Under the pieces are notes generated by a model. That model saw only the letters and a list, made by a program, of their open reading frames with translations. It ran no database searches and was not told where the DNA came from. From NCBI RefSeq assembly GCF_014696825.1, contig NZ_JACJQU010000005.1, forward strand, positions 248,001 to 312,000: 64,000 nucleotides of DNA, given 5' to 3'. Positions 32,556 through 34,925 of the stretch are shown here, piece after piece; within the stretch, counting starts at the first letter, position 1, and each line of letters starts with the position of its first letter. A program made the position numbers and the translations under genes. Origin of the DNA: Anabaena sphaerica FACHB-251 (GTDB lineage Bacteria; Cyanobacteriota; Cyanobacteriia; Cyanobacteriales; Nostocaceae).

Positions 32556-33029
32556 ATGCAAATCCAAACTACCGCCCAAATTATCATCAATGGTAAAATA
32601 GAGGATGTATTTGATTCCTCAATTGAGTCTCAAAATTTACCCAAATTTTTCACTGGTTATAAATCTATACCTGCAATTATTCATGCGAAAACTACAGATG
32701 GTTTGCCTCTCCATCAAGGTAGCATGAGAATTGTTAAAAATAGCGATAGTTCAGAAATAGAAGAAATTATTATCAATCTACAACGTCCCACAATTCAAGA
32801 ATACGAATTAATGCGGGGTTTTCAGCCACCCTTTTCTTGGTTAGTCAGTTCCGCTTCGGGAAAGTGGTTATACTCAAACGTAAATTCAGAAACACAAATC
32901 ATCTGGCAGTTTGAATTTAAAATGAAAAATTATTTGGCATATTTATTTTTCAACGTAGCCATAAAGAAGATGTTTCAACAAGCCCAAATGATTTGCTTAG
33001 AAAACCTCAAAGCCTTTGTTGAACAATGA
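32556..33029 (+). CDS. SRPBCC (START/Bet v1-like) family protein
   Basis: A 157-residue protein with the layout of the helix-grip fold: a first strand IQTTAQIIINGKIEDVFD, SIESQNLPKFFTGY, a central set of strands (EIEEIIINLQRPTIQEYEL), and a long C-terminal helix FFNVAIKKMFQQAQMICLEN. Such proteins bind hydrophobic ligands in a deep cavity. The ligand is unknown. It is the last gene of a possible three-gene unit with YbjN and the lipoate ligase-like gene. Confidence 0.72.
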   Translation: MQIQTTAQIIINGKIEDVFDSSIESQNLPKFFTGYKSIPAIIHAKTTDGLPLHQGSMRIVKNSDSSEIEEIIINLQRPTIQEYELMRGFQPPFSWLVSSASGKWLYSNVNSETQIIWQFEFKMKNYLAYLFFNVAIKKMFQQAQMICLENLKAFVEQ

Positions 33030-33055: not shown

Positions 33056-33126
33056 AAGCAAAAAGCGCCTGGGAGTGTTACCGTGTTTCCACCCCAAACG
33101 CTTTTTGAACTTTGCTCCTCACACAC
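33056..33126 (-). ncRNA. Yfr2-like small RNA, copy A
   Basis: Read on the minus strand, a leader GTGTGAGGAGCAA is followed by AAAAAGCG and CGCTTTTT arms that enclose an inner stem (GGGGTG/CACTCCC). The exposed loop is GGAAACACGGTAACA, and the RNA ends in a T-rich tract. GGAAACA in a loop is the hallmark I recall for the cyanobacterial Yfr2 (Cyano-1) RNA family. A sigma70-type promoter lies at 33133-33161. The ends are estimates. A second copy lies at 33211. Confidence 0.72.
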
Positions 33127-33132
33127 AAATAG

Positions 33133-33161
33133 ACTATATCACTGGTTCAATTAAATAGCAA
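33133..33161 (-). promoter_or_regulatory. Promoter of small RNA copy A
   Basis: On the minus strand, TTGCTA (33161-33156), 17 bp, then TATAGT (33138-33133). The same arrangement precedes copy B, with sequence between the hexamers partly conserved (TGAxxxAGTGA). Confidence 0.7.
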
Positions 33162-33210
33162 GTGTTTTCCTTAAATCTTATATTAGTAATTTAAATACGT
33201 CATTTGTTGC

Positions 33211-33286
33211 CAAAATAAAAAGCGCCTGGGAGTGTTACCGTGTTTCCACCCCAAACGCTTCTTATATTCAACATTGCTCCTCACAC
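33211..33286 (-). ncRNA. Yfr2-like small RNA, copy B
   Basis: This is the same core as copy A (GTTTGGGGTGGAAACACGGT, then AACACTCCCAGGCGC), with an unbroken 34-bp identical block. It is preceded by GTGTGAGGAGCAA and followed on the minus strand by CTTTTTATTTT as terminator. The spacer after the leader differs from copy A. Conservation of promoter, leader and core with drift between them supports a functional duplicated RNA rather than a chance repeat. Confidence 0.72.
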
Positions 33287-33292
33287 AAAACA

Positions 33293-33321
33293 ACCATATC
33301 ACTCAAGTTAGAAAATGGCAA
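33293..33321 (-). promoter_or_regulatory. Promoter of small RNA copy B
   Basis: On the minus strand, TTGCCA (33321-33316), 17 bp, then TATGGT (33298-33293), five and four of six matches to the sigma70 consensus respectively. It lies between the purH stop and the RNA. Confidence 0.7.
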
Positions 33322-33389: not shown

Positions 33390-34925
33390 TTAATGTAAGA
33401 AATGCCGCACACCAGTTACAACCATTAATAAACCCAGTTCATCAGCGGCTTTGATAGAGTCTTTATCCCGCAGACTTCCCCCTGGTTGGACAATAGCAGT
33501 AATTCCCGCTGCGGCTGCGGTTCTGACGGTATCATCAAAGGGGAAGAAACCATCACTAGCTAAAACTGCACCTTGAGCTTTTTCTCCTGCTTGTTCTACA
33601 GCTATTTTCGTAGAACCAACGCGGTTCATTTGTCCAGCACCGACACCTAAAGTCGTCCTATCTTTGCTGATGACAATAGCATTAGATTTAACGTGTTTAC
33701 AAACTTTCCAAGCAAACAATAATTCTGCTAACTCGCTGGGGGTGGGTTGACGTTCGGTGACAACTTGCCATTTAGCTGTATCTGCAATGATATCATCCGC
33801 AGTTTGCACTAAGAAACCACCAGCGACCGCTCTCACCGTTTCTTTTGGTCCAGTCAGCAAATCTGGTAAAATCAAAACTCTGACATTACCTTTCTTAGTT
33901 AAAATTGCTTGCGCTTCTTCATCACAACCAGGTGCAACCACGCATTCTAAAAAGGTCTTCGTTAATTCTGTCGCTGTGACTGCATCAATAGCCCGGTTTA
34001 AAGCTACAATACCACCGAAAGCCGAGGTAGAATCAGCATTGAAGGCTTTTTGATAAGCGTCGAAAATTGTTTCCGCTTCCGCAGTTCCACAGGGGTTGGT
34101 ATGTTTAATAATTGTCGCTGCGGGAGTTGCGGTAAATTCAGCAATGATACGCCGTGCAGCTTCTAAATCTACCAAATTATTATAGCTGAGTTCCTTACCT
34201 TGCAGTTTTGTTGCTGCTGCCCAACCTGTAGGTTTAGTTCCCGTTTGATACCAAGCTGCGGGTTGATGGGGGTTTTCTCCATAACGCAAAGATTGAATTT
34301 GTGTACCGGAAACAGTGTAGGTTTCTGGTAAACCTTCGCTTTGTGTACCAGCGAGATAAGCTGCAATGGCGTTATCATAACTTGCAGTGTGTAAAAATCC
34401 TTTTAAAGCGCATTTTTGGCGAAACTCCAAAGAAGCTGACCCATTTTGCCGTAATTCTTGCAAATACTCATCATACTGATCAGGATTACATAATACAGTC
34501 AGATGGGCAAAGTTTTTTGATGAAGCGCGTAACATTGCAGGGCCACCAATATCAATTTGTTCTACTGCGTCTGCTAAGGTGACACCGGTTTTAGCAATGG
34601 TTTCCTCAAAAGGATAAAGGTTAACTACGACTAAATCAATAGGACGAATTTGGTTATTTTCCAAATCTGTGACATCTTGGGCAACGTCGCGCCGTGCTAA
34701 AATACCGCCATGTATGCGGGGATGGAGAGTTTTCACCCGACCGCCTAAAATTTCTGGTGAGCCTGTATAATCTGAAACCTTTGTAACAGGGATTCCCGCA
34801 TCTTTCAGGGTTTTGGCTGTTCCCCCACTGCTGATAATATCAAAGCCAAATTCTTCAACCAAGCTGCGGGCTAGGTCAATTATACCAGTTTTGTTAGATA
34901 CACTCAGCAATGCTAGACGCGTCAT
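33390..34925 (-). CDS. purH: Bifunctional AICAR transformylase / IMP cyclohydrolase
   Basis: A 511-residue enzyme performing the last two steps of purine synthesis, AICAR to FAICAR to IMP. The N-terminal IMP cyclohydrolase domain begins LALLSVSNKTGIIDLARSLV with IISSGGTAKTL and GRVKTLHPRIHGGIL. The C-terminal transformylase domain carries SLRYGENPHQPAAWY, ATIIKHTNPCGTA (the Lys-His pair of the active site) and SDGFFPFDD, ending VRHFLH. Length is normal. It appears monocistronic; the two small RNA genes lie just downstream on the same strand but have their own promoters. Confidence 0.98.
   Translation of the reverse strand: MTRLALLSVSNKTGIIDLARSLVEEFGFDIISSGGTAKTLKDAGIPVTKVSDYTGSPEILGGRVKTLHPRIHGGILARRDVAQDVTDLENNQIRPIDLVVVNLYPFEETIAKTGVTLADAVEQIDIGGPAMLRASSKNFAHLTVLCNPDQYDEYLQELRQNGSASLEFRQKCALKGFLHTASYDNAIAAYLAGTQSEGLPETYTVSGTQIQSLRYGENPHQPAAWYQTGTKPTGWAAATKLQGKELSYNNLVDLEAARRIIAEFTATPAATIIKHTNPCGTAEAETIFDAYQKAFNADSTSAFGGIVALNRAIDAVTATELTKTFLECVVAPGCDEEAQAILTKKGNVRVLILPDLLTGPKETVRAVAGGFLVQTADDIIADTAKWQVVTERQPTPSELAELLFAWKVCKHVKSNAIVISKDRTTLGVGAGQMNRVGSTKIAVEQAGEKAQGAVLASDGFFPFDDTVRTAAAAGITAIVQPGGSLRDKDSIKAADELGLLMVVTGVRHFLH

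Follow-up and report, generated by a model that had tools for sequence, protein, structure and literature searches.

Tandem Yfr2 genes downstream of purH in Anabaena sphaerica and other Nostocaceae as likely Yfr1-sequestering RNAs

On the minus strand of the 64-kb stretch of Anabaena sphaerica DNA analyzed here (the window), two similar elements lie in tandem between purH and a convergent ORF ending at position 33029. A sequence-only reading had taken them for duplicated Yfr2-like small RNAs, each with its own promoter, had proposed a covariance-model search for Yfr2/Cyano-1, and had suggested that their common leader pairs with anti-Shine-Dalgarno (anti-SD) sites or mimics ribosome sites. What are these elements, and which partner does the leader recognize?

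Both elements score above the gathering threshold of the Rfam family RF01701 (Cyano-1), with 55.0 bits for copy 2 and 50.5 bits for copy 1 against a cut-off of 41, and no other Rfam match in the window passes its cut-off. The upstream gene was identified as purH by its Pfam domains (AICARFT_IMPCHas, 412.5 bits), so that the assignment as two tandem Yfr2-like RNAs downstream of purH was borne out. The positions of all features are given in Table 1. The loop motif of the hairpins occurs exactly twice in the 64 kb, versus 0.10 occurrences expected when up to three mismatches are allowed. The published anatomy of Yfr2 RNAs consists of an unpaired, conserved 5′ end and a long stem that bears a 12-nt loop and, close to it, a bulge (Voss 2009, PMC2662882), and the same arrangement is found here, the hairpin carrying the 12-nt loop GAAACACGGTAA and a bulged T. 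The leader GTGTGAGGAGCAA is present in both copies, as the sequence-only reading had stated; its first nucleotides, at 33286 in copy 1 and 33124 in copy 2, are 162 nt apart. That reading was also right that the copies have an identical core, but the longest identical stretch is 44 bp rather than 34 bp.

Table 1. Coordinates of the yfr2 elements, their parts and purH; positions refer to the window unless a contig is given
Feature	Position	Strand	Remarks
purH	33390..34925	-	Upstream of the yfr2 pair, same strand; PF01808 and PF02142; linkage to the array conserved
yfr2 copy 1 (upstream copy), predicted transcript	33217..33289	-	RF01701, 50.5 bits; Cyano-1 match 33214-33290; 5′ end predicted
Copy 1 promoter-like site, TTGCCA-17-TATGGT, extended -10 TG	33321..33293	-	Scan; positional conservation among copies
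Copy 1 leader GTGTGAGGAG, predicted Yfr1-pairing site	33277..33286	-	Leader invariance; predicted pairing
Copy 1 core, 44 nt, identical to copy 2 core	33217..33260	-	Hairpin, 12-nt loop GAAACACGGTAA, terminal T run; putative intrinsic terminator of its own
yfr2 copy 2 (downstream copy), predicted transcript	33060..33127	-	RF01701, 55.0 bits; Cyano-1 match 33057-33128; 5′ end predicted
Copy 2 promoter-like site, TTGCTA-17-TATAGT, extended -10 TG	33161..33133	-	Scan; positional conservation among copies
Copy 2 leader GTGTGAGGAG, predicted Yfr1-pairing site	33115..33124	-	Leader invariance; predicted pairing
Copy 2 core, 44 nt, identical to copy 1 core	33060..33103	-	Hairpin and T run; copy-to-copy sequence comparison, covariation
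Second-class yfr2	C19:65361-65428	-	About 68 nt; single copy; below the Rfam cut-off

Elsewhere in the genome, contig C19 carries a third copy (39.2 bits), whereas a fourth match, at chance level (18.3 bits), is possibly an mRNA leader bearing the GTGTGAGGAG motif; Rfam Cyano-2 (RF01702) has no match in the A. sphaerica genome. With just one further copy and one stray weak match, the case that the sequence-only reading had named as its refutation, namely a palindrome with many unpromoted copies, is excluded. The unpaired 5′ leader, the bulged long stem with its 12-nt loop and the occurrence of multiple copies per genome are all shared with the Yfr2/RF01701 RNAs described previously (PMC2662882; Lambrecht 2019, PMC6778093), which have their own promoters; the copies examined here have promoter-like sites. 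Several repeats per genome are likewise described for Nostoc sp. PCC 7120, for which four are reported (PMC6974561), compared with three in A. sphaerica, two at purH and one on C19. The tandem direct repeats also recall the NsiR1 array of Nostocales; NsiR1, however, is a different RNA, located upstream of hetF and present as 12 short repeats in Nodularia.

We surveyed 59 genomes of Nostocaceae (54 genera plus five further genomes) for yfr2 copies on the purH strand within 2.5 kb downstream of purH, allowing two substitutions in GTGTGAGGAG, so that any copy departing further from it would escape. Between one and four copies were found directly downstream of purH in 51 of the 59 genomes, and at least two in 40 of them. 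The median distance from purH to the first copy is 98 nt, and 46 of the 56 spacings between copies fall within 142-173 nt. Despite the two substitutions allowed, GTGTGAGGAG is exact in all 108 copies found, and the loop GAAACACGG is present in 100 of them. The stem covaries: 96.6% of the cells are paired, versus 54-65% in four slid controls, and the 80 distinct hairpins contain 87 two-sided compensatory cells. This conservation and covariation support the view that the elements are duplicated functional RNAs. Among the matches listed for 57 genomes of the same order outside Nostocaceae, Yfr2 was directly downstream of purH only in one genome (G128). The locus is thus positionally conserved, with tandem copies whose linkage to purH is kept across Nostocaceae, contrary to the published picture in which yfr2 loci are unconserved (PMC6778093). 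No paper naming Yfr2 together with purH was found in the literature searched, and as far as that literature shows the purH-linked array appears to be new.

One genome (G021, C41:260185-262785) has four Yfr2 copies downstream of purH with an exact 171-nt period and equal Rfam scores, which suggests that its array expanded recently. Concerted evolution of the cores was considered and rejected. Core identity is higher within genomes than between them (0.915 vs 0.859), but the promoters change in the same direction (0.563 vs 0.452), and the nearest neighbour lies in the same genome about equally often for cores (20.7/97) and promoters (25.5/97). Since cores and promoters behave alike, gene conversion is not separable from ordinary duplication.

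The copy on contig C19 belongs to a second class of Yfr2 with the layout GTGTGAGGAGCGAAC...CCGAGACGAAACACGG...AGTCGTCGG, whose stem differs from that of the purH-linked class and whose loop is the same. An exact-pattern search recovered a single member of it in each of 106 Nostocaceae genomes out of 118, and it is present in 64 of the 291 genomes of a phylum sample, including other families of the taxonomic class; the reversed control pattern gave no matches. In 18 of the 20 loci examined, which come from many families, one or both of two neighbours are retained: an upstream ORF and a gene judged by eye to be HAD-type hydrolase-like. The 21 members that were scored reach 36-40 bits, so that this widespread class mostly falls under Rfam's cut-off of 41. 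As far as the literature searched shows, a syntenic, single-copy second class of Yfr2 also appears to be new.

The sequence-only reading had assigned matching TTGCNA-17-TATNGT promoters to the two copies, and a promoter scan recovered both, as TTGCNA-17-TATRGT, each with an extended -10 TG. Taken alone the scan is weak, with three sites versus 1.7 expected by chance; stronger support comes from the 108 copies, including those of other genomes, among which the positions of the hexamers are conserved. In Nodularia spumigena CCY9414, the published yfr2 gene runs on the minus strand from its start at 460195 to 460090, and in the purH-linked copy the leader begins with the G at 460192. Because the published start coincides with this leader, the orthologous locus is transcribed from just upstream of it. 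By analogy, transcription in A. sphaerica would start near 33289 and 33127, 3 nt before the leader in each case. Each copy, having a promoter-like site of its own, is presumably an independent gene that is expressed in this strain.

The conserved motif of the small RNA Yfr1 is CACUCCUCACACC (PMC4734099), and the Yfr2 leader is its perfect complement over 10 nt. Yfr1 itself is encoded in the A. sphaerica genome (RF01116, 62.2 bits, contig C9). In co-folding predictions with RNAcofold, the interaction energies of the two yfr2 copies with Yfr1 are -18.6 and -16.3 kcal/mol, whereas dinucleotide-shuffled Yfr1 sequences give a mean of -7.0 kcal/mol against copy 2 (sd 2.5); the best of the 300 shuffles reaches -17.2 kcal/mol, which the -16.3 kcal/mol of copy 2 does not beat, so that the co-folding energy alone is not decisive. 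Removal of the leader reduces the predicted interaction to about -0.6 and -0.2 kcal/mol, and it is also about zero when the leader is replaced by its complement. In the leader of the second class, 14 out of 15 positions are complementary to Yfr1. The complementarity and the leader-dependence of the predicted pairing together make these elements most likely Yfr1-sequestering RNAs. Published work agrees with this: Yfr2 of Prochlorococcus relieves repression by Yfr1 in an E. coli reporter assay (PMC6778093), and Yfr2 of Nostoc 7120 binds Yfr1 in EMSA and is induced by nitrogen deprivation (PMC6974561).

The loop GAAACACGG is unnecessary for the predicted pairing with Yfr1. Since a near-invariant loop is dispensable in this respect, sequestration of Yfr1 leaves part of the RNA unexplained. 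It is conceivable, though in our judgement unlikely, that Yfr2 acts mainly on mRNA or protein targets of its own through the loop and that Yfr1 binding is secondary. Besides its near-invariance among the purH-linked copies, the loop is common to the second class despite the different stem sequence of the latter, and Yfr2 of Prochlorococcus pulled down 302 mRNAs (PMC6778093), a result indicating that Yfr1 sequestration may not be the sole role of Yfr2. However, the leader is more constant still than the loop and matches Yfr1 exactly, and the direct mechanistic tests in the literature searched concern Yfr1 and Yfr10.

Pairing of the leader with the 16S anti-SD is very improbable, as is a role as a decoy ribosome binding site or as the leader of a short ORF. 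The leader does contain GAGGAG, but when it is considered by itself its predicted pairing with the anti-SD comprises 6 bp with -7.8 kcal/mol, versus 10 contiguous pairs with -18.7 kcal/mol for the Yfr1 motif, and its invariant GTGT portion falls outside any SD. The short-ORF reading was rejected because an ATG follows the leader at 3-12 nt in only one of the 108 copies. The anti-SD pairing suggested earlier thus gives way to pairing with Yfr1. The proposed mimicry of ribosome sites stands in one respect, in that the leader mimics the sites that Yfr1 targets, but it would decoy Yfr1 and not ribosomes: Yfr1 targets ribosome sites, which is why the leader looks like one, and the leader copies the sequence that Yfr1 attacks. 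Least probable of all is that the repeats are not RNA genes but tandem terminators of purH, or bidirectional ones serving both purH and the gene that converges on it; the hairpins do sit between two converging genes and are bordered by runs of A and T, but a terminator has no need of an invariant leader or of promoter hexamers at constant spacing, and the conserved loop sequence and the mapped transcript start of the Nodularia copy also argue against it.

The whole A. sphaerica genome (6.2 Mb) was searched for candidate Yfr1 targets with the exact pattern GTGTGAGGAG-N3-12-ATG, the reversed pattern serving as control. Exactly three sites were found, all at the starts of ORFs, and the control gave none. 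One is in front of an SLH/OprB porin ORF (C34:27972-27994, minus strand), whose ATG follows an exact GTGTGAGGAG at a distance of 10 nt; porins are established targets of Yfr1, and this is likely a Yfr1 target site. The second directly precedes an ATG that lies within a subtilase-family ORF, close to its start (C23:35855-35873, plus strand), and this internal ATG, instead of the upstream one, may be the true start. The third precedes a small ORF (MADYPKSN...LISGQ; C5:224775-224794, minus strand) that lies downstream of, and adjoins, an ABC transporter ORF. Small ORFs nearby carry GG-type leader motifs. The small ORF and the transporter neighbourhood possibly form a peptide export cluster controlled by Yfr1.

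We consider it highly likely that the two elements are independently transcribed Yfr2 (Cyano-1) genes whose leader sequesters Yfr1 from the ribosome binding sites of mRNAs, and that having two tandem copies would raise the dose of this sponge. The mechanism, like the family and its structure, is already published. Each gene would give rise to an RNA of about 70 nt in which a single-stranded leader at the 5′ end, GUGUGAGGAG, is followed by a long hairpin capped by the conserved GAAACACGG loop and then by a U tail, at which transcription would terminate. The leader would pair with the CACUCCUCACACC motif and so prevent Yfr1 from reaching the ribosome binding sites of the mRNAs that it targets, including those of porins and cell-wall genes. 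Tandem copies with separate promoters would increase the sponge dose, probably under nitrogen or light stress. For A. sphaerica itself, expression, the sponge function, the stress response and the dosage role of the two copies are what we infer from these data. More speculatively, Yfr2 might be two-handed, its leader titrating Yfr1 and its GAAACACGG loop binding a second partner, with the purH array of Nostocaceae, through its per-copy promoters, setting the dose separately from the ancient single-copy locus; we regard this extension as doubtful.

The vague guess of a ribosome site is hereby replaced by a specific and testable partner, Yfr1. The conserved purH array and the second class with its syntenic locus add modestly to what is known of Yfr2, and both are relevant to the tuning of a cell-envelope regulator in heterocyst-forming cyanobacteria.
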